Assembly: GCA_947626985.1 (NCBI GenBank)
Contig: CANQUG010000004.1
Span: forward strand, 1 to 64,000
Reading direction: 5' to 3'
From: an uncultured Lachnospiraceae bacterium
Lineage (GTDB): Bacteria; Bacillota; Clostridia; Lachnospirales; Lachnospiraceae
Length of the DNA: 64,000 nucleotides
Below are positions 1 to 21,735 of this stretch, in pieces. The notes beneath the pieces are model-generated. The model was not told the DNA's origin. It made no database searches and saw only the letters and a program-made list of their open reading frames with translations. Positions within the stretch are counted from its first letter, which is position 1, and every line of letters starts with the position of its first letter. The position numbers and the translations under genes are program-made.

Positions 1-3000
1 TTATTATTTAACCGCAACTGCGAAAATTGCCTTTCTATCTTCCTCACATTCAAATACATCTCATGTTATTATTTAACTCGAGCAGCCCATCGGAGGCGTT
101 ATTCCGATCATATTCAAATACATCTCATGTTATTATTTAACCTTATAACTTCTTTTATTTCGTCCAATGCTACGTATTCAAATACATCTCATGCTATTAT
201 TTAACCGTGGTGCGGTAGAGTGATGAAATGGGAAAAGCCATTCAAATACATCTCATGTTATTATTTAACGCCCACAGGGGCGCAGATTCTTTTCCGGGGA
301 CTGGAATTCAAATACATCTCATGTTATTATTTAACGCGCTTGTGGATATTCTTGCCTACGACATGCACATATTCAAATACATCTCATGTTATTATTTAAC
401 ACGAAAAGTTAAAAGGCATTCTGGCAAGACTGATCAAATTCAAATACATCTCATGTTATTATTTAACATTTTGTAGCCGTCCTCCACCAGGAATACCAGC
501 GATTCAAATACATCTCATGTTATTATTTAACTGCGAGACTACCACCCCCACAATCTTGCGGATATATTCAAATACATCTCATGTTATTATTTAACAGGTC
601 TTGGTCCATTTCAGGAGCATGGAGAGCAACATTCAAATACATCTCATGTTATTATTTAACCAGTAAACGAAGCTGCCCCCATCTTGGAGGAAAGCAATTC
701 AAATACATCTCATGTTATTATTTAACACATTGTTATCATGGTGCTTTGTCAGGACATGTAATTCAAATACATCTCATGTTATTATTTAACCAATTCCGCA
801 CTTCCTCGCAAACGCCCTGAGACATTCAAATACATCTCATGTTATTATTTAACGGTGAACGAGATGCCAGGATATGAATCAATATTCTGATTCAAATACA
901 TCTCATGTTATTATTTAACATGGGGCATTTGTGGCACCGGGAAGCGCGGGAACGCATTCAAATACATCTCATGTTATTATTTAACAGGGAAGAGCATGAA
1001 ATTTCATAAGATTCGAGGCGTATTCAAATACATCTCATGTTATTATTTAACATCCTTAAGATTTAAGGACTTCTTCCCGCATGAAATTCAAATACATCTC
1101 ATGTTATTATTTAACGGTCCGCTCTGTCTCCAAAGTTGTAGGACAGGACATATTCAAATACATCTCATGTTATTATTTAACGCTGTTAATGATGTAACAC
1201 AAGTTAAAGATATGGCATTCAAATACATCTCATGTTATTATTTAACTTCAGCACCAAAAGAGTCCGGATCTGCCAGTTTACATTCAAATACATCTCATGT
1301 TATTATTTAACTGAAGAGAATGAGTACCTTTATTGCAAGAATGATATTCAAATACATCTCATGTTATTATTTAACGCCCCGTTTAAAAGCCCCATATTGC
1401 TAAAATGCCTAATTCAAATACATCTCATGTTATTATTTAACATTCTGGCGTTGCTGGCCGCTGCGGGGATAGTAATATTCAAATACATCTCATGTTATTA
1501 TTTAACGCCCGCCCAGTCAATAGACGGAACCTTACAGGCCCATTCAAATACATCTCATGTTATTATTTAACGAAACACTTATGGAAATGAGCGGACAAGA
1601 AAACTTTATTCAAATACATCTCATGTTATTATTTAACGATGCCACGCCGCAAGGTAACGATAGCATACCAGAATTCAAATACATCTCATGTTATTATTTA
1701 ACTAAACCGGAGATCGCATATCCGATATCACCGGGTGATTCAAATACATCTCATGTTATTATTTAACTTTGCGGGCGTAGAATAGAATAGGGCAAACTAC
1801 ATTCAAATACATCTCATGTTATTATTTAACGATAACACAATTCCCAGAAGTAGCAAGAGCGAACCTATTCAAATACATCTCATGTTATTATTTAACTTTT
1901 CCGATCTCTCCCATACATGGACGCGGCACTAATTCAAATACATCTCATGTTATTATTTAACATAATTTCAAGGATTATAATATTTGCCAGAGCATATTCA
2001 AATACATCTCATGTTATTATTTAACGGGGGTGTTAGTCAGTCAATATTGTTACACTCAGAGATTCAAATACATCTCATGTTATTATTTAACTTAAAAGCA
2101 TGGTACTGGCAGACCTGCCGAAAGCCAATTCAAATACATCTCATGTTATTATTTAACGGTGAATGAAATGCCAGGGTACGAAACGGTTTTTTATTCAAAT
2201 ACATCTCATGTTATTATTTAACTCAAATGCTTTAGCTTATAAACTTTGCACTAACCGATTCAAATACATCTCATGTTATTATTTAACGCGGGAAAAAGAT
2301 AGGGATAAAAACTGGGAGGTAATTCAAATACATCTCATGTTATTATTTAACGACAAGGGCGGGGAAACATTCGTTCACAAAATGGATTCAAATACATCTC
2401 ATGTTATTATTTAACAACGAAGCTGCAGGAAGTAACAGCGCGGCAGATCAAATTCAAATACATCTCATGTTATTATTTAACCACTCCCGAAGCTGCGCCT
2501 TGCTCTCTGAAAGGAATTCAAATACATCTCATGTTATTATTTAACCCTATCAAAACCGATTTCCATGCCGGCCACGACGAATTCAAATACATCTCATGTT
2601 ATTATTTAACTGGCGTTTGCTCAGGCAAACAGCAATACTACGGCATTCAAATACATCTCATGTTATTATTTAACAGTCTACCTAAAGGTGCAGTTCAAGG
2701 AGCCGACCGAATTCAAATACATCTCATGTTATTATTTAACATGCTGGTAAAAAGAAAGAAAGAATATAAAAATAATTCAAATACATCTCATGTTATTATT
2801 TAACTTACCAATCTGTTTAAACTCTCCTGTAACTGTATTAATTCAAATACATCTCATGTTATTATTTAACATGTTTGAGCACAATGCAATTAATGACTTT
2901 TTATATTCAAATACATCTCATGTTATTATTTAACGTGGCTCTCATTTGCGCTTCTGATACTGTTATTGCATTCAAATACATCTCATGTTATTATTTAACA

Positions 3001-6000
3001 ATTGCCGGCAAGTGGGGGAATGGAGAGGACCGGAATTCAAATACATCTCATGTTATTATTTAACGGTATCAGAGCAAACACAATCAATGAATTGTACCAA
3101 TTCAAATACATCTCATGTTATTATTTAACATAGCATGCTATTGTTGTTTTGTCAATATTATTATATTCAAATACATCTCATGTTATTATTTAACCCAGAC
3201 GGAGGTCATGCCGGTCACTGTACCGATTCTATTCAAATACATCTCATGTTATTATTTAACGCCTCAAACGTGATGGCGTTTTCCAGAGCATCTTATTCAA
3301 ATACATCTCATGTTATTATTTAACTTGCCTATCCTTAAGATTTAAGGACTTCTCCCTCTAATTCAAATACATCTCATGTTATTATTTAACCGGAAGGTTA
3401 GTGATTGCTGTGGATGCCGCGCTTTATTCAAATACATCTCATGTTATTATTTAACAGAGAGGGGGAAGGAACTGCCGGAGCTTCTAAGGAATTCAAATAC
3501 ATCTCATGTTATTATTTAACAAGTAGAAGAGCTGCTGGACAAGCGAAGCGACGAATTCAAATACATCTCATGTTATTATTTAACACGGTAAAGTTCACCT
3601 TCTTCTACTTCGTAATACAATTCAAATACATCTCATGTTATTATTTAACCTGCTAAATTTTCAAGACACCAAATTCTTTCCTTGATTCAAATACATCTCA
3701 TGTTATTATTTAACTGCCAGATTCACCTTCTGATATTAAATTATTATGATTCAAATACATCTCATATTATTATTTAACCTATCCGGCCGTCACTAAACTC
3801 TAACATGAAGTGCATTCAAATACATCTCATGTTATTATTTAACTACCAGCGGATGATATGGCAAAAATCTGCCATATCTAATTCAAATACATCTCATGTT
3901 ATTATTTAACAAAAAGACAATAATCAGATTATTAGAGCGTAGCAATTCAAATACATCTCATGTTATTATTTAACTCCTCTTTCACAAACACAACGGCGTT
4001 CGCAAACGGATTCAAATACATCTCATGTTATTATTTAACCTGCGATATCGAGAAAAGCGTTCATGAAAGAATTATTCAAATACATCTCATGTTATTATTT
4101 AACAGATTATTTAACGCAATGCGGCTTCATTCGTGACGAATTCAAATACATCTCATGTTATTATTTAACGTGATTGTGTCCCAGATACCCCCGAAAAAGT
4201 CTTATTCAAATACATCTCATGTTATTATTTAACAGGAGAAAAAGTTATGTTAGAGAAAACATTATCAAATTCAAATACATCTCATGTTATTATTTAACGA
4301 CGCCCCTATTAGGGCGTTTCGTCTTAATTTTCAAATTCAAATACATCTCATGTTATTATTTAACTAATGCGGTCCATGTATTTGTCATAATTTTTATCAT
4401 TCAAATACATCTCATGTTATTATTTAACAGGAACTGACAATCGAGGAAATCATTAAAAAAACAGATTCAAATACATCTCATGTTATTATTTAACGGGTCA
4501 TTTTTTCAAAAAAAACTTTTAATTTACTATATTCAAATACATCTCATGTTATTATTTAACCAGTCGGTTGCAACATCGCCAAACTCTAACTTTGCAATTC
4601 AAATACATCTCATGTTATTATTTAACCATCTGGATGCCGGTGATCACCACATCGTCAGCCTATTCAAATACATCTCATGTTATTATTTAACTGGTTTCAA
4701 ATTTGTACGAAAGGCCTTTATCCGGCATTCAAATACATCTCATGTTATTATTTAACCGAAGGAAGTGATCTCCGGGAAGTGGGGAAACGGATTCAAATAC
4801 ATCTCATGTTATTATTTAACAAGCTGGAGTCTTACAAGAACACCCTGCTGGAGCATTCAAATACATCTCATGTTATTATTTAACGAGATGAAAAAAGCGG
4901 AAAAGAAGGAACAGAGCCTATTCAAATACATCTCATGTTATTATTTAACTTAGGTTAGATTTTAGTGACGGTAGACTAGTAGAACTATTCAAATACATCT
5001 CATGTTATTATTTAACAAATATCTCTTTTGTACCACTAACGGACGTTTCACGATTCAAATACATCTCATGTTATTATTTAACCGAACCATGGTAAATAAG
5101 CGCTCTGATGAGTCTTATTCAAATACATCTCATGTTATTATTTAACCACAACAAATGGAAAGAAAGCACTCTGAAGAGTCTTATTCAAATACATCTCATG
5201 TTATTATTTAACTGTTTTATATTTGTGCCACCATAGCATATTTTTTGATTCAAATACATCTCATGTTATTATTTAACTATGGCGTGCTGCGCTACCCGGT
5301 CTTTAAAAAGCAGATTCAAATACATCTCATGTTATTATTTAACACGAACAGTGAGAGATGTGAGATTTTATAGGATTGATTCAAATACATCTCATGTTAT
5401 TATTTAACGGAGGGCGTGAACAACGCCAACACAGGTACACAGGGATTCAAATACATCTCATGTTATTATTTAACTAAAGATTTAAAAGATAATAAGAAAA
5501 TGTGTGATTAATTCAAATACATCTCATGTTATTATTTAACCATTACGCTTTCCCGGCTCGTGTCGCAGATAATAATTCAAATACATCTCATGTTATTATT
5601 TAACAATGTCACCGGCATCGCAGTGTTCGTGAATACCCTATTCAAATACATCTCATGTTATTATTTAACCTTATCGGCTCCGGGGAAAAAGGATAAAAAA
5701 GCAATTCAAATACATCTCATGTTATTATTTAACGGGAGAAAAGCGGCCCGCCTGATAAAGGACAAAAATTCAAATACATCTCATGTTATTATTTAACCGA
5801 ACAAAATAGGTATTGTACTTGCCCTGGACGGATTCAAATACATCTCATGTTATTATTTAACGGAGACTTTTATAGAGGAAATCCAGACTTCCAACGAATT
5901 CAAATACATCTCATGTTATTATTTAACGCAACCGTTCGTTGTGGAGTATGCCCGGCGAAGGTCATTCAAATACATCTCATGTTATTATTTAACGCATCTG

Positions 6001-9000
6001 AGATGCTGCAGTTTCATGCTGTGGAGCTCCATTCAAATACATCTCATGTTATTATTTAACCTAAATGTTCCATTATTTGGTCGTAGGTTTCAAGGATTCA
6101 AATACATCTCATGTTATTATTTAACTCAGAGCCGTTACTTTAATAAATCGAAGGGCGGTATTCAAATACATCTCATGTTATTATTTAACTTAATTCGTGC
6201 GATGTATGCCTCATAATTTTTGTCATTCAAATACATCTCATGTTATTATTTAACTATGAAGCAGGTTACGAATCCGCTGAAATAATCATATTCAAATACA
6301 TCTCATGTTATTATTTAACGTTTTGGTGTTTGGAGAACTTAGTCGAACAAGGGAATTCAAATACATCTCATGTTATTATTTAACAAACCTACGACTGCGT
6401 TGTAAAAGTCTATGACAGATTCAAATACATCTCATGTTATTATTTAACGGGTACAAAAACTTATATGCAGATGGTTCAGGAACATTCAAATACATCTCAT
6501 GTTATTATTTAACTAGTTACGTCGGCGAAACGGCTTACTTCTCGCTCATTCAAATACATCTCATGTTATTATTTAACTATTCAATCCTTTATTATAATTA
6601 TTTAATAAAACAATTCAAATACATCTCATGTTATTATTTAACTCTACATTTTCTAAATCATAACTTTTAATAATGTTAATTCAAATACATCTCATGTTAT
6701 TATTTAACATGGATAAAACATATTTAGAATTGCAATCAAATTAATTCAAATACATCTCATGTTATTATTTAACTTCCGTATGACTGTACACCAGACACCG
6801 CCAGCTTCCATTCAAATACATCTCATGTTATTATTTAACTTAGCCTCGCTCTCCGGTTTAGCAGCTTCCTTGTATTCAAATACATCTCATGTTATTATTT
6901 AACCTGGCAGATGGGACAGTGTACCCATCCGTATTTGTATTCAAATACATCTCATGTTATTATTTAACGGCTGAAAAGGGAATGTCGCTTGATGATATTC
7001 TCAATATTCAAATACATCTCATGTTATTATTTAACTCTGTATGCGTCTGTATCGTTATATATATTCGGGATATTCAAATACATCTCATGTTATTATTTAA
7101 CGTTGCATTTCGTGTTGCATCGCATTACAAATCAGTATTCAAATACATCTCATGTTATTATTTAACGGGGTTACGAAAGAGACGATAGAAAGAAACGTGC
7201 TATTCAAATACATCTCATGTTATTATTTAACCGGAAAGCTAACAAGGCTTTTGCGAGGTATTGCGTATTCAAATACATCTCATGTTATTATTTAACGTAG
7301 AACAGCCGGAAGCATTGGAATGGCATTCGAGGTATTCAAATACATCTCATGTTGTTATTTAACCCGGATTAACGCAGGCACAGCTTTCAGAGTTTTTATT
7401 CAAATACATCTCATGTTATTATTTAACAACTGGAAATGTCCGGGAACGAGGGGACTGTTACATTCAAATACATCTCATGTTATTATTTAACCTGCCCCGT
7501 TTGCGATATTCAGCAGGCAGGATTTGCATTCAAATACATCTCATGTTATTATTTAACATCTACGACCGGTCCTACGTCGGGAAATGGATTTTATTCAAAT
7601 ACATCTCATGTTATTATTTAACTTGTAAAAGCCGCCCTGTTTGTTGTCAATTCCTCGTATTCAAATACATCTCATGTTATTATTTAACACAAAAGAACGC
7701 AGAATGGTAATTGCAAAGCAAGAATTCAAATACATCTCATGTTATTATTTAACCAACGCCTTTGTGGTAAATGGGGATGCTCTGCAAGAATTCAAATACA
7801 TCTCATGTTATTATTTAACTCGAGGAAGAGCTTGGCAAGATTGCAGACAAAGGCTATTCAAATACATCTCATGTTATTATTTAACCCGGGCGATATTTTG
7901 GAATACAGAGAAGGTGGTGATATTCAAATACATCTCATGTTATTATTTAACAATGTCACCGGTATTGCGGTATTTGTCAATACACTATTCAAATACATCT
8001 CATGTTATTATTTAACGCCAAAGAGTATGCTAAGCAGGCTAAGGCAAGCGCATTCAAATACATCTCATGTTATTATTTAACTCCTCCGGCAGTTCCGGCA
8101 ATAGCGCAACGGTGATATTCAAATACATCTCATGTTATTATTTAACGACAGCGAATGGACACGGGCGCAAAGTGTATTTTTATTCAAATACATCTCATGT
8201 TATTATTTAACTAAACTTTGGCAGCCTAGAGAACCTAATGGCCCGAAATTCAAATACATCTCATGTTATTATTTAACTTATGACAGGAGGAACATCCGCA
8301 CTTATTACTGGAAATTCAAATACATCTCATGTTATTATTTAACTTGTAATCTATAATGATTACCTTCAGCACTTAGAACATTCAAATACATCTCATGTTA
8401 TTATTTAACAAATGCAGAGGCATCGTCTTTTTTAATCTGCTCAAATTCAAATACATCTCATGTTATTATTTAACGCAGACAGTCCGGAAGAAACCACGCT
8501 CTGTGCGTTATTCAAATACATCTCATGTTATTATTTAACAAGTTGACTTCATGGACCCGCCATAGGGAATGATCATTCAAATACATCTCATGTTATTATT
8601 TAACATTCTGGCGTTGCTGGCCGCTGCGGGGATAGTAATATTCAAATACATCTCATGTTATTATTTAACTTTCGCTCTCTGCGGTGTTCTCTCGTGCTAT
8701 CTGCATTCAAATACATCTCATGTTATTATTTAACACAGCCGTTTGTCTGCGCCCGTTCAAATTCACGCTATTCAAATACATCTCATGTTATTATTTAACT
8801 CACCTTGGTCGGGTCGAGCATTTTGCCGGTCACTTATTCAAATACATCTCATGTTATTATTTAACAGGAAGCTCTTCATCTATTCCGCTCGGAATTTGCA
8901 ATTCAAATACATCTCATGTTATTATTTAACAAAGCCGAAACCGCAGAAACCACGCTGAAAGGCTTATTCAAATACATCTCATGTTATTATTTAACTTTTT

Positions 9001-9775
9001 CGGATAGACAATTTCCCTATAAAATTTTCTCATTCAAATACATCTCATGTTATTATTTAACGAGGACAAGCCAAAGGGTTCCGGTAGTGCGTACATATTC
9101 AAATACATCTCATGTTATTATTTAACCTTTAGGGCGGTTTTGGACGTTTTGATGGCCATGAAATTCAAATACATCTCATGTTATTATTTAACCGAACGTG
9201 ATCGTCGTTTCCAGTGCGTCCTTGACTATTCAAATACATCTCATGTTATTATTTAACTTAACGCCGTTGCAGTTATAAAACTTGTTTCCCAATTCAAATA
9301 CATCTCATGTTATTATTTAACATCGTGCATATAGTAAATGGTACTACCGTCTGACATTCAAATACATCTCATGTTATTATTTAACGCCAATGCAACAGCA
9401 GTACAACGCACAGCAAGGCTATTCAAATACATCTCATGTTATTATTTAACTCTCTTTTTTCTCCGATACTATCCGGATCATGTACCATTCAAATACATCT
9501 CATGTTATTATTTAACAGCTCCCCGCTTCCGCTTCCGGAACCGGACACGCATTCAAATACATCTCATGTTATTATTTAACGGAAAGTGATCGGAACTATT
9601 AATTATCTGTCTGGTGATTCAAATACATCTCATGTTATTATTTAACCAGGCTAAAGCAGTAAAAGAGCTGGAAGAGGCTGTATTCAAATACATCTCATGT
9701 TATTATTTAACTAGGTATTTCCGCCGAAACCACTTTGCCGGACTTATTCAAATACATCTCATGTTATTATTTAAC
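1..9775 (-). CRISPR. Type I-B CRISPR array, about 150 repeat-spacer units, cut by the window's left edge
   Basis: A 30-bp repeat beginning ATTCAAATACATC and ending TTATTTAAC on the plus strand recurs about every 65 bp. By hand I count 150 complete repeats (first 48-77, last 9746-9775) plus the last 12 bases of another at 1-12, and 150 spacers of about 33-37 nt. Read on the minus strand the repeat starts GTTAAATAAT and ends ATTTGAAT. It contains the small stem ACAT-GAG-ATGT just before the 8-nt handle ATTTGAAT, as expected for Cas6 processing, so transcription runs right to left from the leader beside cas2. The newest spacers are therefore at the right and the oldest lie beyond the window. Only three repeats carry a substitution: 176-205 (base 194), 3749-3778 (base 3766) and 7334-7363 (base 7354). 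One spacer occurs twice (1442-1476 and 8605-8639). All apparent reading frames here are translations of the repeat, not genes. Confidence 0.99.
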
Positions 9776-9954
9776 CCCCCGCTTTTAAGCCATCTCTCAG
9801 ACTTTAATATACTCCAAATTCCTTGACTTTTCAACCCTTTTCGGGAATTATTACCAGCCTCCACAGTTATTTTTCATTTTTTCCTAATCAAGGCTCCAAA
9901 CCCCTTTAATTTCAAGGCTTTCACACATTTTTCCCTTCTCGGCACCTGGTAAAA
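9776..9954 (-). promoter_or_regulatory. CRISPR leader with array promoter
   Basis: This AT-rich, gene-free stretch lies between the cas2 stop and the first (newest) repeat, where a leader is expected. On the minus strand it holds a promoter with -35 TTGAAA (9829-9834) and -10 TATATT (9806-9811) separated by exactly 17 bp. Transcription would start about 25 nt before the first repeat. The leader end touching the repeat would be the site where Cas1-Cas2 inserts new spacers. The promoter is read from the sequence; its use is inferred. Confidence 0.85.
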
Positions 9955-10245
9955 TCACAGTATTAAGCTTTCTCCATTTTCACGATCTCCAGTTCCTAAA
10001 ATTTCCTCGCCAAAGACACCATCATTTAGCAACTTGATAATACATACGAAATCCTCCTGTTCATCAATTACCTTTTTTAGTTCTGTCTCTAGCTGTATTA
10101 ATTTCGATGGCGTCATCTCACCGCGAAACACAGATTTCTGAAAATGTGATAAATATTTTTTACACACTTTGAAAACTTTCTGCACTCTTTTTTCTCCAAC
10201 ATCATAAAAAAGAAATGCATAATTATAATTTATGTTCTTTTTCAT
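9955..10245 (-). CDS. cas2: CRISPR-associated endoribonuclease-fold protein Cas2
   Basis: A 96-aa protein of normal Cas2 length. The first strand ends FLFYDVG with the conserved Asp at about residue 15, followed by KRVQKVFKVCKKYLSHFQKS and VFRGEMTPSKL, typical of Cas2 from type I-B systems. Cas2 dimers bridge two Cas1 dimers in the integrase that inserts spacers at the leader end. The ATG follows the cas1 stop codon with no gap, so the two are translationally coupled. It is the last gene of the operon and lies next to the leader. Confidence 0.96.
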   Translation of the reverse strand: MKKNINYNYAFLFYDVGEKRVQKVFKVCKKYLSHFQKSVFRGEMTPSKLIQLETELKKVIDEQEDFVCIIKLLNDGVFGEEILGTGDRENGESLIL

Positions 10246-11244
10246 TTAGAAACCTTCTTTCAAACTGAATGGAATATATTCTTTTTCACCTGTAATCTGC
10301 TTTATTAGTTTATAACAATCCAGCTTAATTGCAGTTTGATATGAAACCTTTCTTTTTAAGACAGGATGCTGGAATACTGACTCCATCCTTCCTTCAAATG
10401 CCTCAATAAAAATCTTCCTTCCCTCATCATTTAAAATACAATAATTCACCTTCTTATCAAAGTGCTTCCCTACCTGAAGTCTTCTGTTATTTACCAGTTC
10501 AAAAATAGTCCGGAATACAATAACTGGTTTAAACACTTCACTCATATCAAGACTCAAGGAAAATCTGCCCTCAGATGGCTCATGAAGAAAACTTATTCTC
10601 TGATCCAAATGAGTTCGGTAAATCGCAGAAATTGTCTTAGTATAAAGCAGCGTATTTCCAAAAGACACCAAAGCATTCATAGGATTATCCGGGGGCCGTT
10701 TCACTCTTTTATTCATAACAAAATCTTCGGGAAGGAAATACTGAAAATCATGGTAAAATCGCATCCACACTTCACCTTCAGCAGCCATTAAGACCTTTAT
10801 ACTATCTGCACTGTCCACAGCTCGGAAAAACTCCTTACGTATCCAGTCCGTAGTATTCTTTACTTCTCTCTTATCATGCTTATAATAATGATAAAGCACC
10901 TCATAAATATTAATTCCTATGCCTTTCACTATAGATTTTGCAATTTTCAATCTGTCTTTCTGAAAAGCTTCCACCTGTTTTACCAGAAGTTTTCCACTCA
11001 TATACTGATCCCTTGGGTAGAAAGTCCCACTGTATCCACCATAATAATTAAAAAAATGTACTACAACATGATTCTGTGCGAAAAAATCCAGCAATTTGCT
11101 ATTGATACTAACCTCATTCAGGCAGTATATTTCTCTAGTGTTTTCTATTGGAATATATACATTTTTTTCATTTTTTCGAAAGCACAGTGAATTATCTTTT
11201 CTAGACAGTTCCCCCATAGATGATATATATTTTGTACTTCCCAT
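10246..11244 (-). CDS. cas1: CRISPR-associated integrase Cas1
   Basis: 332 aa. The C-terminal all-alpha catalytic domain shows NALVSFGNTLLY, FLHEPSEGRFSLSLDMSEVFKP and FRTIFELVN, which contain the conserved His and acidic metal ligands of Cas1. The protein integrates new spacers together with Cas2. A GTG at 11250 is also in frame, but AGGAG lies only 2 nt before it and 8 nt before the ATG at 11244, so I choose 11244. It sits between cas4 (45-nt gap on the ATG side to the upstream gene region) and cas2 (adjacent), forming the adaptation block of the operon. Confidence 0.96.
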   Translation of the reverse strand: MGSTKYISSMGELSRKDNSLCFRKNEKNVYIPIENTREIYCLNEVSINSKLLDFFAQNHVVVHFFNYYGGYSGTFYPRDQYMSGKLLVKQVEAFQKDRLKIAKSIVKGIGINIYEVLYHYYKHDKREVKNTTDWIRKEFFRAVDSADSIKVLMAAEGEVWMRFYHDFQYFLPEDFVMNKRVKRPPDNPMNALVSFGNTLLYTKTISAIYRTHLDQRISFLHEPSEGRFSLSLDMSEVFKPVIVFRTIFELVNNRRLQVGKHFDKKVNYCILNDEGRKIFIEAFEGRMESVFQHPVLKRKVSYQTAIKLDCYKLIKQITGEKEYIPFSLKEGF

Positions 11245-11295
11245 ATTCACTTCTCCTCATATGAAGATTTTCTGATATCTTCTGAAAATCCACCT

Positions 11296-11787
11296 TCAAA
11301 TGTAACAGTAATCATAATAAGCACACTTTCTGCATTTCGGCTTATTCAGGACAGGTGGCGTTTCATCCTGTTCCAGTAACTCCTGTATCTCACAAATATA
11401 CATATCAAGCTCCCTTTCTATATCTTCTGTAAGTTCAATGATTACTGTCTTTTTATTATTTTTGTTTTTTTCCACAAATTCCAGTTTTCCTTTACGAACG
11501 ACACCCTTCTCATTCAAAACTTTTAAATAATAGAGCAATTGCCATTTAGCTGCTTCCGCATCCGCATCTGACTTTTTTATTTCAGTCAAATATTCGGTGG
11601 TAAGTTTATCTAATTTTATATTGTCAATTGATATCTCCGTATTCCCATGTTCAGCTCTTTCCTCATGAAGCGCTTTACCAATTTTCACTTCTTCGCTGTT
11701 ATCCTCCAGATTCATACGATTCCCAAACAGATAGCACTGCCGTTTACAATGGAAATAGTAATTCACTAAAGTCCCGGTCACTTTCAT
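11296..11787 (-). CDS. cas4: CRISPR-associated exonuclease Cas4
   Basis: 163 aa, the usual size of a type I Cas4. The RecB-like nuclease core is visible (HEER, then a KGKLEFVEK strand that carries the catalytic Glu/Lys region). Cys14/Cys18 at the N-terminus and Cys152, Cys155 and Cys161 at the C-terminus are the likely 4Fe-4S ligands. In I-B systems Cas4 trims prespacers and fixes PAM choice and orientation with Cas1-Cas2. Ribosome site AAAAGGA lies about 8 nt before the ATG. It is transcribed after cas3, with a 91-nt gap in which I see no clear promoter. Confidence 0.95.
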   Translation of the reverse strand: MKVTGTLVNYYFHCKRQCYLFGNRMNLEDNSEEVKIGKALHEERAEHGNTEISIDNIKLDKLTTEYLTEIKKSDADAEAAKWQLLYYLKVLNEKGVVRKGKLEFVEKNKNNKKTVIIELTEDIERELDMYICEIQELLEQDETPPVLNKPKCRKCAYYDYCYI

Positions 11788-11878: not shown

Positions 11879-14458
11879 TTAAATAAAATCAACAAATTCC
11901 CCAATATTGTTTTCTATTTTTTCTCTGTTTAATTTTCCATGATCAAAATATTTTTCACCATCATCTATATAAAACAGTTCTCCAATTTTATCGTTATAAA
12001 TCAAATCAGAATTCTTTTTTATTTGATAAATAAAATAGTTCATTTTACTCTTCACCATTGACAATTTCACTCTTTTCTCTGAATAGTCCATATGAAGATT
12101 TCTTAAAAGTTCCCCATACTCTTTCCAAATTTTTCTTCCATCTATTTCTTCTCCATTTTCGTCCAGCAGAACCCTTGCCAGATAAACAGACATGCTCCAG
12201 GTATTCTCCGAGATCAGATTCATTTCCCTTTTAACTTCAGGATAATCCAATCTGCTTACCTGATTCTGAAAGAAACTGATAAGCCCGCTGTCTCCCACAT
12301 TATTCACATGCGTCTGTTTTAAAACATCCAGAATCCTTCCATAATATTCCTGAAAATCTTTTTGAACCAGAAGCTCTCTCATTTCCGGATTCTCCAGCGT
12401 AAACTTCTTTTCCACCCGAATATCCTTATCTCTTCCATAAATTGCTTCAGGCTCATCTAATTTAAAGAAATATACCCATCCTTCCCGACGGCAGGAACGA
12501 TTAATCCTGCCTAAAAACTGCTCTTCGCTGTCCAGTTTTGAAATGTTTTTATATCCAATATCCATATCAATGTCTACTCCGGCCTCCACAACCTGCGTAG
12601 CCACCAGAATAATTGCCTGATTCGTTTTTTTAATTTTCTCCAATATCCTGCTTCGTTCAATCAGGCTGTCCTCGCCCGACATATATTCAATATCACAGGA
12701 AATCCTTTCATCCTGCTGCAATCGTTTAAAAAAAGCAGACGCTGTCGTTTTACTTATAAACTCAATTAAAATTTTCTTTCCTTCCAATGAAGATTTTGCA
12801 ATATGGTCCGCAAGAGCATCTTCCACATTAGTCTCCTTCATAAGCTCATATGAAATTTTCACTCGTTCCCTGAAGCAGGGATTAAAAAAATATTTTTCTT
12901 TTTGGGTCATCAGTCTGATCGCAGGATATGTATCAGCCGATAACAAGTCTAAATCCGGCAGAGTCGCAGACATAATTAAAATTTTCATATTTAAAAGATA
13001 AGACAGTTCTTTTAAAAAAAAGATAATCTCTCCCCACAGAGCATTTTTATAGCTTTGTATTTCGTCCAATACTACCACACTGTTCATTAATTGATGAAAT
13101 CCAAATGCTGATTCCTTCGTATCCCCAAACAATGTTTCAAACAAATTTACATGCGTAGATACAATCATTGGATAATTTAAAAACTGCCGATCCAGCAAAG
13201 CCTTCTGATAATAGAATGGAAGCTCAGAATCCAGTGCATCACGTTCCTCCATGCTCATTTTAATCGGAGTAAGAGAATTAATGACTGCAATGTTGTCCAG
13301 AATCTCCGGATTATTTTCAAATATCTTCTGCAGACTGTTCATATTCTGTTCTACCAACGTATTAAAAGGATAGATATAATAGATTTTCTTCAACCTTGAA
13401 TCTGCCTTCATCAGCTGAAAACTTAAATCCACAGCTGTATTACTTTTCCCGCTCCCTGTAGGAGCTTCCAGAAAAAAGAGTGTTTCCCGGAAGTGTTCTT
13501 TTAAGACAGACTCCGCGTCCAGCAACATTTCTGTTCTTAACTGATCAATCGCTGTTTTTTGCCTCAAATTGTTCTCCGGTCCAAGATAAATATTCTTTTG
13601 ATATATTCGTATTTTTTTCATGAGGCCGGTATCTTCATATATACGAATCCATTCGGAAATTTTATCTAAATTTCCCAATTGAGTTACTTTCATACCAGAC
13701 TCGAACTCTGACGTTGCATAATAATCGCTCGCTAACAGTACAGAATATAATATTTTACTATAAACGTACAGGGAAATACCCTGCTCTATCGACAAAGTTC
13801 TGATATTTTTTTCCATATCTTTGACCCTGCCTCTGAGCATATCCCCTCTCAGAGAAAAATTCCCCCGATAGACAGTACATTTTCTCTGCTGAAATACCTC
13901 CGCAATATCCTGTCCAATTCCATCTTTTAATTCATTCAGAAATTTCTCAAACGCTTGCAGATCACTGTGATGTCTCGCTATAATATATGCATTGCAAAAT
14001 ATCATCTGCCTCAGCACTTTTTTATCTGTTTTACTAACTGCAGTACGTTTCATTTCATTAAAAAAATAATCTATATACAATACAGAAGATATTAAGGAAT
14101 GTCTGCTGGACACACAAAAAAACTCTCCCTGATCTTTAATGCAATAGTTTTTCATCTTTTCATTCTGGAACTTTGGATTGATTTTTCCCACATCATGAAA
14201 AAGTGGAATTCCCCGAATCATCTCCTTCAGACATTTTTTCCCTTCTGGCGTCAGTTCCGGGCATATTCTCCTGCAAAAACGTTCCAGAAACTCTTCCATG
14301 CCTTTTTCTTTCCAGACATCACTGAAATATCCTTCCGTCAGACGGATATGTTCCAAAAGCTTTTCTCTTTTAATGACCTCTCCCTTATTATTTTCTGAAA
14401 TATGAGCTTCATACTGATCTATATCTTTTATCAGACATTCTATCGTTTTAATATCCAT
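11879..14458 (-). CDS. cas3: CRISPR-associated helicase-nuclease Cas3 (HD + SF2)
   Basis: About 859 aa. The N-terminal HD nuclease is marked by LFHDVGKINPKF (His88-Asp89) and ARHHSDL. The SF2 helicase follows with Walker A EAPTGSGKS, a DEIQ motif II within VVLDEIQSY, motif III MSATLPD, and motifs V-VI VATQVVEAGVDID and QFLGRINRSCRR. Cascade recruits Cas3 to nick and unwind the target strand. An upstream in-frame ATG at 14473 is part of GAGGTGGG, the ribosome site for the ATG at 14458, so the latter is chosen. A strong terminator-like hairpin lies just upstream (14491-14524), which may lower cas3 and adaptation-gene expression relative to the Cascade genes. Confidence 0.96.
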   Translation of the reverse strand: MDIKTIECLIKDIDQYEAHISENNKGEVIKREKLLEHIRLTEGYFSDVWKEKGMEEFLERFCRRICPELTPEGKKCLKEMIRGIPLFHDVGKINPKFQNEKMKNYCIKDQGEFFCVSSRHSLISSVLYIDYFFNEMKRTAVSKTDKKVLRQMIFCNAYIIARHHSDLQAFEKFLNELKDGIGQDIAEVFQQRKCTVYRGNFSLRGDMLRGRVKDMEKNIRTLSIEQGISLYVYSKILYSVLLASDYYATSEFESGMKVTQLGNLDKISEWIRIYEDTGLMKKIRIYQKNIYLGPENNLRQKTAIDQLRTEMLLDAESVLKEHFRETLFFLEAPTGSGKSNTAVDLSFQLMKADSRLKKIYYIYPFNTLVEQNMNSLQKIFENNPEILDNIAVINSLTPIKMSMEERDALDSELPFYYQKALLDRQFLNYPMIVSTHVNLFETLFGDTKESAFGFHQLMNSVVVLDEIQSYKNALWGEIIFFLKELSYLLNMKILIMSATLPDLDLLSADTYPAIRLMTQKEKYFFNPCFRERVKISYELMKETNVEDALADHIAKSSLEGKKILIEFISKTTASAFFKRLQQDERISCDIEYMSGEDSLIERSRILEKIKKTNQAIILVATQVVEAGVDIDMDIGYKNISKLDSEEQFLGRINRSCRREGWVYFFKLDEPEAIYGRDKDIRVEKKFTLENPEMRELLVQKDFQEYYGRILDVLKQTHVNNVGDSGLISFFQNQVSRLDYPEVKREMNLISENTWSMSVYLARVLLDENGEEIDGRKIWKEYGELLRNLHMDYSEKRVKLSMVKSKMNYFIYQIKKNSDLIYNDKIGELFYIDDGEKYFDHGKLNREKIENNIGEFVDFI

Positions 14459-14490
14459 ACTTACCCACCTCATTATCTATTTTTTTATAC

Positions 14491-14560: not shown

Positions 14561-15355
14561 TTAGTAGAACACAATCCTTCTTCCATCCTCCAGCTGATAA
14601 ATCGGGATATCACTTACCTTCATAAAGGCGTTTGTGTATAAAAAATCCTGTATCAGATAATTATTGGTCCAACCATCCATTCCATACGGCAGTGCCTCCT
14701 GATATTTAAAACTGTCCCACACATCTGTCTCTCCCTGTTCCTCCAGTTCCATCTTATCATCTTCATCCAGATCAGCGATACTTATCCTGTTTTTCGGCGT
14801 GAGACACCCCAGTCTTCCGAATTCAAAAAATACTTCTTCCGTCTGCTCCACAGTGATCGCTGTAATATCTGCAGGATGATCATTTCTGCCCAAATATGGA
14901 TAATACACACAGGTTCGATTGCATATGGCATCGCGAATTTTTTTCGCTTCCCTGCAATCAACTAGAAGGCAGATTTCCCAGGCAGGATTTTCCAGCCATT
15001 GTTCTTTAACAATCAGATTACCTCCAAGTTCCCGCGAAGCATACCCTACAGAATTATTAAAATACTGTATTTTTTTGGGAATTAACCCTTTGCTTTCGCG
15101 AAAAGGAAGAATAGAAATTTTCAGGTCCTGCAGCCGCTCGTAAAATTCCGGATAGCCAAATGCCAAAGTCTCCTGCCCTTTTCTTTTCCCCGATTCCTGC
15201 ATCTGCGTATAACCGCCATACCCAAGAATCGCCCCAAATATGCCAAGGAGCGCTACCTTGTGTATATTGCCATATGTAAAATAGCAGTATGAATTCATTT
15301 CCGGTTTCCGGAAACAGGCATTACGCCCACTCAGCGTAAATTTCAGTATTTCCAT
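14561..15355 (-). CDS. cas5: Cascade subunit Cas5 (type I-B)
   Basis: 264 aa. The N-terminus MEILKFTLSGRNACFRKPEM is the typical first strand and FRKPE loop of Cas5b/Cas5h proteins, which cap the 5' handle of the crRNA and hold the large subunit. The ATG lies 2 nt after the cas7 stop, so the genes are coupled. The body has no motif I can assign to catalysis, as expected when a separate Cas6 does the processing. Confidence 0.92.
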   Translation of the reverse strand: MEILKFTLSGRNACFRKPEMNSYCYFTYGNIHKVALLGIFGAILGYGGYTQMQESGKRKGQETLAFGYPEFYERLQDLKISILPFRESKGLIPKKIQYFNNSVGYASRELGGNLIVKEQWLENPAWEICLLVDCREAKKIRDAICNRTCVYYPYLGRNDHPADITAITVEQTEEVFFEFGRLGCLTPKNRISIADLDEDDKMELEEQGETDVWDSFKYQEALPYGMDGWTNNYLIQDFLYTNAFMKVSDIPIYQLEDGRRIVFY

Positions 15356-15357
15356 AC

Positions 15358-16326
15358 TTATACCTCATTCATTGTGCGGATATCATAAAGTTTCATACAT
15401 TCCGCACCTTTCAGTTCTGTGGTATAGGGATTATAATACACATCCATTTTCAGAATTCTGTCTTTCATTGCTTCTAAAATCTCCGTACAGTTCAGGTTAA
15501 TCACATTTTTCTTCTCACCTTTTTCAAACTCGATATATTCCGACAAATTCGGAAGATACGTGTCCGGTGTTGTTTCCACAAACAGAGCAAACTCATTTTC
15601 GCATCCTACTTTAGAATTCGTGGCAAACGCAGTAGCCGACACCAGGGCAGTTCTTCTGAAATTCTGATAATCCTCCTCTGTATATCCCTCTGTAACTCCA
15701 AGTTCTTTAAATTCCTTATAAGCCAGCGGATTAATCACAAAAGGATAGAAATAGTGCGCTTCATTGCTGACAATCTTTGTTCCCAAAGTTGAATTCTTTG
15801 CTTCTTCTTTTTCACCTTCACCTTCATTTGAAGAATTGGATTTATCTTTTTTAGCTGTCCGGAACGGGGACAAAATCTGCTGTTCTTCCGGGTTTGTTCC
15901 AGAATATTTATTAAAGCCCTGTCCAATCTGCACTGCTCCGGTAATCGAGATATTACTTCCTGATTCGGCAAAAGTAGCTCCAAAATTCTTCACATCTACC
16001 GCCGACATCAGATTCGTCAGTACCTCTTTAACATTTTTACAATTCTTCAAATCCTTTACCTGAAACAGCTGCTCATACCGTTCCTTCAAAGTTTTAGGAA
16101 TCAGTGTTACTTCCCCTTTTTTTCCTTCGTCCGAAAGCTTCATGGACTTTATATACAATACTTTTTTTCCTTCATCATCCCACATCTTTTTCATCGGGTA
16201 TTTTAATGCTTTATCGCTTCCAAACGTTTCACCATCACTTGTTGTCTTGGGATATCCGGAAAAATCTGCATTCCAGTTTGCCATAACAGAAGAAATCCCC
16301 AATACTCCATACACTCGTTTATTCAT
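15358..16326 (-). CDS. cas7: Cascade backbone subunit Cas7 (type I-B)
   Basis: 322 aa. The N-terminus MNKRVYGVLGISSVMANWNA with NADFSGYP is characteristic of the Cas7b (Csh2/DevR-like) backbone proteins that polymerise along the spacer part of the crRNA and displace every sixth base. A charged, low-complexity insertion (SNSSNEGEGEKEEAKNST, about residues 168-185) probably forms an exposed loop. It is separated from cas8b by 1 nt and from cas5 by 2 nt, in the standard I-B order. The every-sixth-base geometry of this family matters for the pseudo-guide upstream of the operon. Confidence 0.93.
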   Translation of the reverse strand: MNKRVYGVLGISSVMANWNADFSGYPKTTSDGETFGSDKALKYPMKKMWDDEGKKVLYIKSMKLSDEGKKGEVTLIPKTLKERYEQLFQVKDLKNCKNVKEVLTNLMSAVDVKNFGATFAESGSNISITGAVQIGQGFNKYSGTNPEEQQILSPFRTAKKDKSNSSNEGEGEKEEAKNSTLGTKIVSNEAHYFYPFVINPLAYKEFKELGVTEGYTEEDYQNFRRTALVSATAFATNSKVGCENEFALFVETTPDTYLPNLSEYIEFEKGEKKNVINLNCTEILEAMKDRILKMDVYYNPYTTELKGAECMKLYDIRTMNEV

Positions 16327-16327
16327 T

Positions 16328-18172
16328 TTACTTTTCCTCCTTCATATAAATCAAATTATCACATGCATATCCTAAAATAATCATTTCCTGGTCAATTTTT
16401 CCATCCGGAATATAGCCTTCCACCAGAGCAAGCAAATTCTTCACTCTTCTGTCCATATCCGATATCGAATAATTATATTTTTTATAAAGCTGCAGGATCC
16501 GCGACTTTATCATTACATCAGACTTTGCATTCAAAAAAGGATTCAGCAGCGACTGGTTCCTGTCCTTTGACCGGTTCAGTGAAATCAGATATGCCGCCAG
16601 CTGTCCTACCGCATAAAAATACTCATCGTCATTTTCCAACGGAATTGTCTCTTTTGCTCTGATTTTCAGTTTCAGGGATTCCTTAATCCCGCTTATTGTT
16701 TCCGCCATATTAATTTTTCCTCCTGAAAAATAGTTTCTAAATGAATAACGCAGATCCAGCTGCCAAAGTACACGCTCACGGTATCTATTCAACAGATTTC
16801 CTTTTATCAGATTTATAGATACTTTCTCCAATATATTCTGAAATCCCCTGTCGATTCCCTTATATACCCAGTCGAATATGGCATCTCTTGCAAGGATCAC
16901 ACTCTGCTTCAGTATTTCGTCGTTAATAGTTATTTCACTAACATTCACGTAATAATTTCCTGACAGATAATTAGAAAAAAACACCGTATTAATTAATTCT
17001 CCCACCTGAATTCTGCTGTCATAAGTACCATACTTATCCCCATATTCTCGATGTTTGTCATACTTTGCACCTAAAATTGGTTCAAAATTGAATTTAGGTT
17101 CCATTTTGGTCTTATAGTCTGTGATATTATCCTGGTTTTGTATTTCCGCCTCATTCTTACCTTTCTGTATCCTGATATAATATCCTGACTCCATGCTGTC
17201 AGGTGCTTTCCCATTCTCAAATCCATTTATCTCTCGAGCAGCAGTATCCACATATATATTGTACTTCCTGGCTGAAGCAAAATTCATCAAAAGATCAAAG
17301 AACTGTTTTTGAAACAAAACTTTATCACTGTCCAGTAAATATGACGCCGGGTATTTTCTTGTTTTAAAGGAAAGCAATGGTTTCTTGGCATTCATTCCCA
17401 GATTATTATCCGGCAAACCATAAATTCTGTTTTCTATTTCTATATTATAATCATTGCTGTTATAAATATTAGGAAGAAAATATCTTCTTCCCTCTTTTTC
17501 ATAAAGTGCATTATCCTCCTTAAAAAATATTTTCAGATAATCCTTCCGACTGAAATCCACAACATCGTTTAAAGCAAAAATATGTTCTTTGATCCATATT
17601 CTCTTTTTTTCAATTTCTTCTTCAGGAGGAGCACCTTCCATCTCCTCGAACATCTTGCAAATTCTGCTTGCTTCTTTAGTTTTTTTATATTTTTTCTCTA
17701 AAGGATTTTTCAGAACGTCATAATATCCGTCAATAATCTCTTCCGTAAGTTTCCCGGAAACAATACTGTCCTTTTTTACCCAAAATGACAGATAATTATT
17801 CGAATGAATCACTTTCTTGGAATCTACCGGTTTATTCATGGAAACTAACCGACTCTGATAATCATAATTACAGATATCACGGAAACTGCTCTGACCAGCT
17901 ATCAGGGTATTAGTTTTCTTATCCATCCTGATATCTACATTCTCAATTATTCTCCCATCCTTCGCTACGATCAGATAAGTTCCAGCCGCTGGAATATAGT
18001 CATCCAGAATCAGCTTTGGCCCCTTTTTATCCAGTTCATCCCTGAAAACATCCAAACATTCCTGTATCACAGGAAAATCACCTCCCTTATATGTTCTTTT
18101 TACCTTGAAGAACCGAACAGATATAACCCGCCTGTCTGCGTCTGTCCGCTTCCACTCAGTTCTTAACTCCAC
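16328..18172 (-). CDS. cas8b: Cascade large subunit Cas8b
   Basis: 614 aa. Identification rests on size, position between cas6 and cas7, and overall similarity to the Csh1/TM1802-type large subunit; I cannot point to a catalytic motif, as the family has none. Large subunits read the PAM and recruit Cas3. The start is a GTG that overlaps the last 10 nt of cas6. No clear ribosome site precedes it, so it probably depends on translational coupling. No ATG occurs near the N-terminus; a later start is possible but would remove conserved-looking sequence. Confidence 0.88.
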   Translation of the reverse strand: MELRTEWKRTDADRRVISVRFFKVKRTYKGGDFPVIQECLDVFRDELDKKGPKLILDDYIPAAGTYLIVAKDGRIIENVDIRMDKKTNTLIAGQSSFRDICNYDYQSRLVSMNKPVDSKKVIHSNNYLSFWVKKDSIVSGKLTEEIIDGYYDVLKNPLEKKYKKTKEASRICKMFEEMEGAPPEEEIEKKRIWIKEHIFALNDVVDFSRKDYLKIFFKEDNALYEKEGRRYFLPNIYNSNDYNIEIENRIYGLPDNNLGMNAKKPLLSFKTRKYPASYLLDSDKVLFQKQFFDLLMNFASARKYNIYVDTAAREINGFENGKAPDSMESGYYIRIQKGKNEAEIQNQDNITDYKTKMEPKFNFEPILGAKYDKHREYGDKYGTYDSRIQVGELINTVFFSNYLSGNYYVNVSEITINDEILKQSVILARDAIFDWVYKGIDRGFQNILEKVSINLIKGNLLNRYRERVLWQLDLRYSFRNYFSGGKINMAETISGIKESLKLKIRAKETIPLENDDEYFYAVGQLAAYLISLNRSKDRNQSLLNPFLNAKSDVMIKSRILQLYKKYNYSISDMDRRVKNLLALVEGYIPDGKIDQEMIILGYACDNLIYMKEEK

Positions 18173-18855
18173 CGATAATTAACAAACCCGGCGCCTCGGC
18201 TGTTCATTTCTGCCACCCCTGTTCCCAATGACAGGTATGCCAGCTTCTGAGCTGTCTCATTGTCAGCGATCTGGAGCCGTATCTTATCGCCAAGCAGACG
18301 AATATTCTTATACTTCATTACAATAGGACCTTCATTCATAAATTCGAGCAAAGTATAAAGTTCAAAATCTTCCCGCAGTTTCTCTCCATAAAGAACATTC
18401 CATTTCTTGATCAGATTTACTTTAATTCTCTCCTCAAATGATTCCAAAGTCATATTTTTTCTCCAGTATCCTCCGTCAGTTTTCAGAATCACCGGAGTCA
18501 AAGTATAAATGCAATCAATCCATCTCTCAGGAATAATCCGTATCTCGGCAGTCAAACCCTTCATTTCCTGCGTATAATGATTGACACATACTTCCTGAAA
18601 ATGTTTCGCCAATTTCGAATCAACTGTCCGTATTGTGACCGTATAAATCCTCCCTTCTTTATAGACTTTGTCCTTTTCCAACGGATATGGAAGATCAAAG
18701 CAATACCCTTTGAAGCGATTTTCCTCGTGCATCTGCAGCAGCTCATCTATCCCGCCGAAGCTTTGATCGATAAATGACGCGAGTTTTTCCTGAACCTTAT
18801 CAGCAGGAATGAAAGTCAGGAAATAAAGTTTCAATCGAATCTGATATATGCGCAT
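18163..18855 (-). CDS. cas6: CRISPR RNA endoribonuclease Cas6
   Basis: 230 aa. Ends in the glycine-rich loop signature LGTGVAEMNSRGAGFVN (about residues 210-226) that identifies Cas6. It cuts the pre-crRNA at the base of the repeat stem and leaves the 8-nt ATTTGAAT handle. Ribosome site AGGAGG lies 6 nt before the ATG. It overlaps cas8b by 10 nt and follows the 146-aa gene by 11 nt. The same stem and handle occur in the degenerate repeats at 19524-19611, so this enzyme should also process that RNA. Confidence 0.95.
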   Translation of the reverse strand: MRIYQIRLKLYFLTFIPADKVQEKLASFIDQSFGGIDELLQMHEENRFKGYCFDLPYPLEKDKVYKEGRIYTVTIRTVDSKLAKHFQEVCVNHYTQEMKGLTAEIRIIPERWIDCIYTLTPVILKTDGGYWRKNMTLESFEERIKVNLIKKWNVLYGEKLREDFELYTLLEFMNEGPIVMKYKNIRLLGDKIRLQIADNETAQKLAYLSLGTGVAEMNSRGAGFVNYRWS

Positions 18856-18866
18856 TTTCGTTCCTC

Positions 18867-19307
18867 CTATAAAATTTCTCCTTCCTTATAGCATGCCGCT
18901 ATATATTCACGCGACTGGTAATAAACAGCAATATTATAATCACTTAAAAACCGATCAATCCATGACTGATAGACATTCATCAATGTATCAATAATAGATT
19001 CATCTTCTCCTACATCCTCTATTAATCTTTCATAAACTTCGCCTATGGTCCAATAATCCGGAACTGTATATCTGCACTCCTTTTCATTGTCAAAGTCTCC
19101 TTTTTGGATCCGGCATTTTTCAATAAATTCATCAGCCACCTTTTCAATTGGCTCGCAATGAAAAACATCTGCATATTTATATACACGTTCAATTGTTTCT
19201 TTTCCCAGCTGTTTAACCACCTCCTTACGACGTCTTTTTACAGTCCGTCCTATATATTCGATAAGACTGCACGTATAAAACAAATTATTATTATTCTTTT
19301 CAGCCAT
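18867..19307 (-). CDS. Uncharacterised 146-aa protein at the head of the cas operon
   Basis: I do not recognise a named family. The protein is alpha-helical and soluble in appearance, without membrane segments or signal peptide. It begins MAEKNNNNLFYTCSLIEYIG and contains RRRKEVVKQLG, a stretch ADVFHCEPIEKVADEFIEK and a C-terminal QSWIDRFLSDYN segment. My impression is of a small conserved Firmicute family, but I cannot name it. A TTG at 19328 is in frame, but AAAGGAG fits the ATG at 19307 and forms part of that longer frame, so 19307 is chosen. It is the first gene after the consensus cas promoter and is 11 nt from cas6, so it is co-transcribed with Cascade. A role as a Cascade accessory, regulator or guarded factor is only a guess from position. 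Confidence 0.75.
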   Translation of the reverse strand: MAEKNNNNLFYTCSLIEYIGRTVKRRRKEVVKQLGKETIERVYKYADVFHCEPIEKVADEFIEKCRIQKGDFDNEKECRYTVPDYWTIGEVYERLIEDVGEDESIIDTLMNVYQSWIDRFLSDYNIAVYYQSREYIAACYKEGEIL

Positions 19308-19403
19308 GGACTTTATAGCTCCTTTCAAATTTTAATGTGCTCAATCTTCCAATATATAGAATCAATTTCTATTTACGAATCCTGGTTATCTGTGTTTTCT
19401 TCG

Positions 19404-19432
19404 ATTATAATACTGCTTTTTCAATATGTCAA
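19404..19432 (-). promoter_or_regulatory. cas operon promoter, perfect consensus
   Basis: On the minus strand TTGACA (19427-19432) and TATAAT (19404-19409) are separated by exactly 17 bp, a textbook vegetative promoter. Transcription would start near 19397, about 90 nt before the 146-aa gene. A promoter this strong in front of cas genes normally implies a repressor; the pseudo-guide target at 19443-19457 lies immediately upstream of the -35 box. Confidence 0.9.
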
Positions 19433-19442
19433 TGAATTTCTT

Positions 19443-19457
19443 ACAATATCTTGTCAT
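19443..19457 (-). promoter_or_regulatory. Predicted Cascade operator matching the pseudo-spacer seed
   Basis: The minus-strand sequence ATGACAAGATATTGT here matches the first 15 guide bases of the pseudo-spacer, ATGACCAGATAATGT, except at positions 6 and 12. Complementarity stops after 15. A bound complex covering 28-36 nt from 19457 would reach 19430-19422, over the -35 box of the cas promoter. The three bases 5' of the protospacer are TCG. The match is read directly; the operator role is inferred. Confidence 0.75.
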
Positions 19458-19464
19458 CGAGTTT

Positions 19465-19495
19465 TAAAAATAGTTCTCAAAACTGACCTTGAGAA
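19465..19495 (-). terminator. Terminator-like hairpin ending the pseudo-crRNA transcript
   Basis: On the minus strand TTCTCAA (19489-19495) and TTGAGAA (19474-19480) form a 7-bp stem with an 8-nt loop, followed by CTATTTTT. It lies between the second degenerate repeat and the cas promoter, so it would release a short RNA and keep its transcription apart from the cas operon. Confidence 0.6.
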
Positions 19496-19523
19496 TTTTC
19501 TGAATATTCTGATTCTACACCAT

Positions 19524-19611
19524 TTTCAAATACATCCAATGTTACTATTTATCATAATATCAGAACACATTATCTGGTCATATTCAAATACATCTTATGT
19601 TATTTTTCCAA
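19524..19611 (-). ncRNA. Candidate crRNA-like regulatory RNA (CreR/CreA type): two degenerate repeats and a 28-nt pseudo-spacer
   Basis: Pseudo-repeat 1 (19582-19611) and pseudo-repeat 2 (19524-19553) flank a 28-nt pseudo-spacer (19554-19581), shorter than the array spacers. On the transcribed minus strand both repeats keep the Cas6 stem ACAT/ATGT; the loop differs (AAG and TGG instead of GAG). Repeat 1 keeps the full handle ATTTGAAT that would form the 5' end of the mature RNA, while its 5' part, which processing discards, has decayed. Repeat 2 ends ATTTGAAA. This pattern of decay fits a functional crRNA-like guide rather than a dying array. Families with this layout are the CreA antitoxin RNAs and Cas-regulating CreR RNAs. 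I find no convincing own promoter upstream; GATAAT near 19641-19648 is the best weak candidate. Confidence 0.8.
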
Positions 19612-19655
19612 TTCCTTTATCAAACAGTGAAACACTGCCATTATCCCCAGTACCA

Positions 19656-19690
19656 GCGCCTCCAATGCAGGAGGACAGCAATGGAGGCGC
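19656..19690. other. Hairpin between adh and the pseudo-crRNA locus
   Basis: GCGCCTCCA (19656-19664) and TGGAGGCGC (19682-19690) are perfect 9-bp arms with a further inner TGC/GCA pair. No T-run follows on the minus strand, so it is not a standard terminator for the alcohol dehydrogenase gene that ends at 19756, though it may slow read-through into the pseudo-crRNA. Confidence 0.5.
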
Positions 19691-19755
19691 AAAAATCAAA
19701 GTTTCTCTCAATAGAAATCACACAATCCATGCCGCCGCATTTGATCGCCGCACAT

Positions 19756-20832: not shown

Positions 20833-20879
20833 ACTTTCTTTCCTCCAGTTCCAAAAAGGCCGGCTCCGCAGAAAAACTC

Positions 20880-21717: not shown

Positions 21718-21735
21718 AAGAAAGGAGTGATCTTC

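Follow-up and report, generated by a model that had tools for sequence, protein, structure and literature searches.

The type I-B operon and the crRNA-like unit upstream of it

The window, meaning the whole stretch of 64,000 nt analyzed here (contig C4; the assembly totals 4.08 Mb), encodes a whole type I-B CRISPR-Cas system on its minus strand, in the order PDC-M10B-family gene, cas6, cas8b, cas7, cas5, cas3, cas4, cas1, cas2, and CRISPR array. The first gene in the operon (orf147, 18867..19307, 146 aa) matches the PADLOC family PDC-M10B at 5.4e-69, and cas6 (18163..18855; TIGR01877, 5.2e-17) starts 11 nt after it. These are followed by cas8b (16328..18172; PADLOC Cas8b, 1.8e-175, and TIGR02591, 1e-19, the latter below its cut-off), cas7 (15358..16326; PF05107, 4.9e-38), cas5b (14561..15355; TIGR02592, 3.9e-43), cas3 (11879..14473; TIGR01587, 1.1e-38), cas4 (11296..11787; PF01930, 4.9e-49), a type I-B cas1 (10246..11250; TIGR03641, 1.4e-124), and cas2 (9955..10245; PF09827, 1.1e-19). 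The initial annotation had Cascade repressing its own cas operon; as a correction to it, the gene at the head of the operon is a PDC-M10B gene rather than a known cas gene.

The array (49..9776, minus strand) has 150 copies of the repeat GTTAAATAATAACATGAGATGTATTTGAAT within the window and may continue past the window and contig start. It is large, with 149 spacers of 33–37 nt. As an independent check of the PAM, 7981 bases of the array region were compared with 50,697 phage records at an E value of 0.01, and no phage protospacers were found. Among named genomes, the nearest Cas6 sequences come from a Lachnospiraceae MAG, a Hespellia MAG, and Mediterraneibacter glycyrrhizinilyticus. The closest named relative of the window's Cas6 (L056, 4001–4690; 83%) has only a repeat-like remnant upstream; cas8, cas7, cas5, cas3, and cas1 were not found in the 8.7 kb around its cas6.

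Upstream of the operon, on the cas-gene strand and outside the array, is a crRNA-like gene (creR) with two degenerate repeats, each identical to the array repeat at 25 of 30 positions. In psi-repeat 1 (19582..19611), 17 of the first 22 nt and 15 of the last 16 match the array repeat, and the final 8 nt (19589–19582, ATTTGAAT), the presumed 5' tag, are identical to it. Psi-repeat 2 (19524..19553) matches at 18 of its first 22 nt (19553–19532), the presumed 3' handle after Cas6 cleavage, and at seven of the eight in the tag. Between them is a guide, or pseudo-spacer, of 28 nt (19554..19581, ATGACCAGATAATGTGTTCTGATATTAT), shorter than any spacer in the array. No Rfam matches were found in 18800–20000 at an E value of 0.5, and no terminator-like site in 19250–19800. 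No convincing promoter was found for the guide gene, the best candidate scoring 6/12, a value equalled by 63% of shuffled sequences; it may be transcribed by read-through from the upstream iron alcohol dehydrogenase gene.

The promoter of the cas operon is a perfect (12/12) sigma-70 promoter, with TTGACA at 19427..19432 and TATAAT at 19404..19409 on the minus strand, separated by 17 nt. A promoter scan gave three promoter-like sites, compared to 2.8 in shuffled sequences, with the other two scoring 9/12. Starting 25 nt upstream of the –35 box is the putative target of the guide, ATGACAAGATATTGT (19443..19457, minus strand), next to a TCG PAM (19458..19460). The initial annotation had reported that guide and target differ in 15 bases only at guide positions 6 and 12, that pairing then stops, and that the site adjoins a perfect cas promoter with a 17-nt spacer, and all of this was borne out to the base: 13 of positions 1–15 match, with all 13 of the positions expected to be read (1–5, 7–11, and 13–15) fitting, and positions 16–22 are all mismatched. 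A protospacer of the full 28 nt (19457–19430) would overlap the –35 box by 3 nt.

Taken alone, the match in the window is only moderately improbable, with shuffled guides equalling its score at the cas promoter in 4 of 2000 trials. At the window promoter, no guide from ten relatives scores above 11/15, versus 13/15 for its own, and among the 149 array spacers the top score there is 12/15 when the PAM is disregarded and 10/15 when TC is required. The PAM plus 11-nt seed, TCNATGACNAGATA, occurs a single time in the 4.08 Mb assembly, at the target itself, while the reversed control pattern does not occur at all.

Guide and target pairs in other Clostridia

Including the window, 58 loci anchored on cas6 were compared: 17 from 397 genomes of the same family, three from named genomes, eight new ones from 392 genomes of the order, and 29 from 391 genomes of the class, these samples overlapping. 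One further class match, with stop codons, was given no locus, and screening another 3 and 345 genomes added no cas6 locus. The 700 nt upstream of each were scanned, in ignorance of each genome's own repeat, for a CRISPR-like tag and a guide fitting a site with a TC PAM at 13 or more of 15 read positions. Sixteen of the 58 loci passed, as did 5 of 1740 dinucleotide-shuffled regions; at 14 or more of 15, the counts were 10 of 58 and 0 of 1740.

Fifteen pairs were kept. Fourteen are from among the 16 scan loci, and the other is L063, whose unit lies farther away and came from a wider search, outside both the 700-nt scan and the scan's null. L121 and L126, each with 12 of 13 read positions fitting within positions 1–15, were dropped, with about 0.2 loci expected by chance at the threshold used (5/1740). 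L069 also fits at 12/13 and was kept, having scored 14/15 and having both psi-repeats present. By sample, pairs were kept in 10 of 21 loci in the family set, one of eight from the order, and four of 29 from the class. The remaining 43 of 58 loci, including 11 of the 21 in the family set, have no kept pair; in two of them (L064 and L070) a crRNA-like unit is present, with no fitting target found.

Across these 15 pairs, all 13 read positions within 1–15 fit in 14 and 12 of 13 in the last, whereas none of the 210 cross-pairs, combining the guide of one locus with the target of another, exceeds 10/13. Position 6 is mismatched in 11 of 15 pairs, and position 12 likewise in 11 of 15; an unconstrained position should differ in 61%. 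At the other positions of 1–15, just 1 of 195 cells is mismatched (3 of 221 with L121 and L126 included), all these counts being conditional on a scan that tolerated two misses among 15 read positions and demanded a TC PAM and a tag. When every sixth position is ignored, 7 of 29 loci pass the 14/15 test, compared to two of 29 in any other phase. Sixth positions aside, unbroken pairing ends at 15–21 nt in 14 of the 15 pairs, as it does in the window; in L069 a mismatch at position 9 breaks it at 8.

The third base of the PAM, which the scan did not require, is A in 14 pairs and G in the window, and without any PAM requirement (and excluding tag-preceded targets) TC is found at –3 and –2 in 10 of 12 pairs. 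Clostridium tyrobutyricum has a type I-B system for which the PAM is described as TCA or TCG (PMC9171425). The guides themselves differ considerably between species, with a mean of 7.1 of 18 positions identical and a best of 13, yet they fit their own targets, so the two have evolved in step. This is covariation between species, with one genome for each. The initial annotation had offered covariation among relatives as a check on its reading, with independent divergence of guide and target as grounds for rejecting it. The reading survived this comparison, and with 15 of 58 loci having a pair in which differing guides each fit their own operon, CreR-type autorepression is supported as the likely meaning of the arrangement.

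In 11 of the 15 pairs the target starts 13–34 nt upstream of a –35 box. The others (L080, L105, L107, and L108) have it close to a start codon instead. In L107 and L108, at 280–430 nt upstream of cas6, the target just precedes a small gene which, as an impression from the sequence, resembles a helix-turn-helix regulator. The region upstream of cas6 in L068 and L071 has a different peculiarity: the promoter that the guide fits is located upstream of the guide gene, whose RNA should thus be part of the transcript that it represses and would limit its own synthesis.

Candidate autorepression by a guide RNA, and its alternatives

The explanation we strongly favor is that Cascade, guided by CreR, represses its own operon, so that the CRISPR machinery very probably turns itself down. 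CreR would be transcribed from 19611 towards 19524, and Cas6 would cut both degenerate repeats to leave an RNA of about 58 nt (8-nt tag, 28-nt guide, and 22-nt handle) beginning ATTTGAATATGACC. Loaded into type I-B Cascade, this RNA would guide it to the TCG-flanked site at 19457–19443, where 15 nt of pairing would hold Cascade without a full R-loop; Cas3, it is proposed, would therefore not act. The bound complex would obstruct RNA polymerase at the neighboring TTGACA box, and free Cascade would in this way lower transcription of the PDC-M10B gene, cas6, cas8b, cas7, cas5, cas3, cas4, cas1, and cas2, presumably as a single transcript. When Cascade was short or disabled, for example by a heavy crRNA load or, as the initial annotation proposed, by anti-CRISPR proteins, expression would rise. 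The short guide and short pairing agree with a report that in Haloarcula hispanica 24-bp spacers repress without interference (PMC10989794).

An improbable alternative, though the best of those considered, is that the guide RNA is an antitoxin, like CreA of the CreTA and CrePA systems, holding down a harmful product that could be either the PDC-M10B protein or a small RNA in the ~90-nt leader, with the cas genes as passengers. The first gene does belong to a two-gene defense candidate, and its type I-C relatives have both genes of the pair downstream of a site that a crRNA-like guide fits (see below). At the window locus, however, no DUF3990 gene was found in 17000–22000, nor a terminator-like site in 19250–19800. 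Nine other family loci have a guide/target pair but no M10B by tblastn, and their pairs are still upstream of cas6.

Less probable again is that the unit is the remnant of a small CRISPR array, with a spacer that resembles the promoter by chance and no regulation. Both repeats are degenerate, crRNA-like units without a fitting target exist in L064 and L070, and the window's score by itself is within reach of shuffled guides (4 of 2000). A remnant would not be expected to give PAM-flanked fits in 15 of 58 loci whose guides differ, compared to none of 1740 shuffled regions at 14 or more. The way in which psi-repeat 2 has decayed also argues against it. In nine loci, 155 of 198 positions are kept up to the Cas6 cut, within the presumed mature RNA, and just 33 of 72 after it; psi-repeat 2 was positioned where its first 22 nt fit best, which flatters the former number, and three of the loci (L057, L058, and L059), for which no array was available, were set against a relative's repeat. 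In the window itself, the tail after the cut is still 7/8. The tag of psi-repeat 1 is conserved at 67 of 72 positions, but since it formed part of the search this is not independent evidence. Decay of this kind in psi-repeat 2 is what selection would leave if the functional RNA had a tag of 8 nt and a handle of 22 nt, as has been measured for a haloarchaeal CreA (PMC8501985).

Two similar sites at one promoter are common for repressors, but that the two 15-mers here are binding sites of a protein regulator, rather than guide and target, is the least probable reading of all, given the mismatches at 6 and 12, the TC at –3 and –2 in 10 of 12 sites even without a PAM condition, and the variation of the sites between species.

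By its apparent mechanism, then, the window would be a further member of the CreR group, and autorepression of this kind is already known. The original description of CreR is reportedly that of Liu et al. (2023) in Cell Host Microbe. As described in PMC12737573 and PMC13131331, CreR is a crRNA-like RNA that regulates the cas operons of type I-B, I-E, and V-A systems, and the window resembles it in having a crRNA-like RNA that partly fits its own cas operon promoter next to a PAM. It differs in that the operon is headed by PDC-M10B, and in that the window example is known from its sequence. There is also a likeness to the CreA of CreTA as presented in PMC8501985 and PMC9458426, with two degenerate repeats giving an RNA of tag, guide, and handle, a PAM, positions 6 and 12 apparently unread, and a short seed fit at a promoter. 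The target of that CreA, however, is a toxin RNA and that of the window guide a cas operon, and the seed fit is 15 nt in the window versus positions 1–5 and 7–11 in CreA. Mutants of haloarchaeal CreA are reported in PMC8501985 to show that positions 1–5 and 7–11 are required and 6 and 12 dispensable. The 15 pairs can be regarded as a natural experiment on the bases that are probably read in vivo by type I-B Cascade (1–5, 7–11, and 13–15, but not 6 or 12), with pairing mostly held to 15–21 nt, enough for binding and perhaps short of calling Cas3.

PDC-M10B and its type I-C relatives

PDC-M10 is a candidate defense system in PADLOC-DB, with M10A, a DUF3990 protein, and M10B as its two genes. The window differs from it in having M10B alone, within a cas operon, with M10A not found in 17000–22000. 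The window M10B gene has no Pfam match over the cut-off and no NCBIfam match. Its protein is modeled as all-helical with confidence (pLDDT 92.8), but there is no solved structural relative (best E 4.2), so no function was read from the model. Relatives are numerous (3454 proteins at an E value of 0.001). DUF3990 proteins have a weak, sub-cut-off Pfam similarity to an ADP-ribosyltransferase family. M10A may be a toxin, and the window looks like a version of the arrangement without the suspected toxin. One idea, that the window M10B serves as the sole antitoxin of DUF3990 proteins encoded elsewhere in the same genome, was dropped because the four DUF3990 matches found there each adjoin a small ORF of their own.

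M10B neighborhoods were compared, with cas and DUF3990 queries, at 57 distinct loci, comprising all 29 matches of one search and the 30 best of 98 of another, so that the set leans to near relatives; L025, with no M10B match, was skipped. M10B is linked to type I-B genes without DUF3990 at two loci, the window and L062 (the same as L135), and to type I-C genes at 11, each with a DUF3990 gene; genes of this type I-C kind are among the nearest relatives of the window gene. At the remaining 43 loci, DUF3990 is nearby in 37 and absent in six. In L062 (645–1082), the M10B is 70% identical to that of the window and precedes cas6 in a second I-B operon, where no guide unit was detected; the stretch upstream gives the impression of the end of a transposon TnpB gene.

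The type I-C loci (L159–L168, also numbered L010, L011, L015, L016, L131, L132, L134, L136, L138, and L139, together with L169) have the order cas3, DUF3990 gene (M10A), M10B, cas5c, cas8c, cas7, then adaptation genes where the contig continues, with the gene families checked in L159 only. The L159 protein matches PDC-M10A and those of L011 and L015 are DUF3990 in Pfam; other I-C loci were assigned by tblastn similarity to the L011 protein. Between cas3 and M10A, in 10 of the 11 loci compared to one of the 43 unlinked ones, is an antisense repeat end (GATTGAAAT or GATTGAAAC), and in all ten the predicted RNA has a stable hairpin beginning about 21–30 nt after it. In seven of the ten, a TTC-flanked site upstream of M10A is fitted by the guide so defined at every one of the 10 read positions (1–5 and 7–11). 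None of 90 cross-pairs and none of 2000 shuffled guides reach 10, but eight of the cross-pairs and 13 of the shuffled guides reach 9, so that L136 and L139, at 9/10, count for little; L138 has no fit. Positions 6, 12, and 18 are each mismatched in six of the seven fitting loci. The presumed promoters after these sites score 8–10 of 12 and so are less certain than that of the window. The gap between M10B and cas5c is 16–26 nt in nine of the 11 loci, from which the Cascade genes probably share the M10A promoter.

This arrangement reads as CreA control of a toxin–partner–Cascade operon. In CrePA, as outlined in PMC12737573, a KilA-N toxin, CreP, is repressed by CreA, and the I-C relatives are similar in that a suspected protein toxin is preceded by a site matching a CreA-like guide. 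They differ in that this toxin is a DUF3990 protein (no KilA-N match was found for those of L011 and L015) with a protein partner, and in that the genes for Cascade come shortly after it on the same strand; at the window locus, no DUF3990 gene was found in 17000–22000. No title in the open-license literature was found to place DUF3990 under CRISPR control.

It is tempting to regard CreR and CrePA as two states of one device, a proposal whose chances we would put at about even. In the I-C loci of the Lachnospiraceae, a single Cascade-repressed promoter would drive a toxin of the ADP-ribosyltransferase kind (M10A), its partner M10B, and the Cascade genes, so that disabling Cascade would release the suicide pair and fresh Cascade at once; the window I-B operon would have kept M10B and lost the toxin. 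If this is true, PDC-M10 gains a function as a guard sensing anti-CRISPR proteins. The location of a candidate defense pair behind a guide-fitted site is the less expected result here and leads to a direct prediction of what releases the pair, and this link to M10 adds more interest than CreR alone. In L169 (2560–3160), the lone I-C locus of the eleven without a tag, M10A is frame-shifted near its start, unless the assembly errs; as one case, this suggests that the suspected toxin and its guard were lost together.
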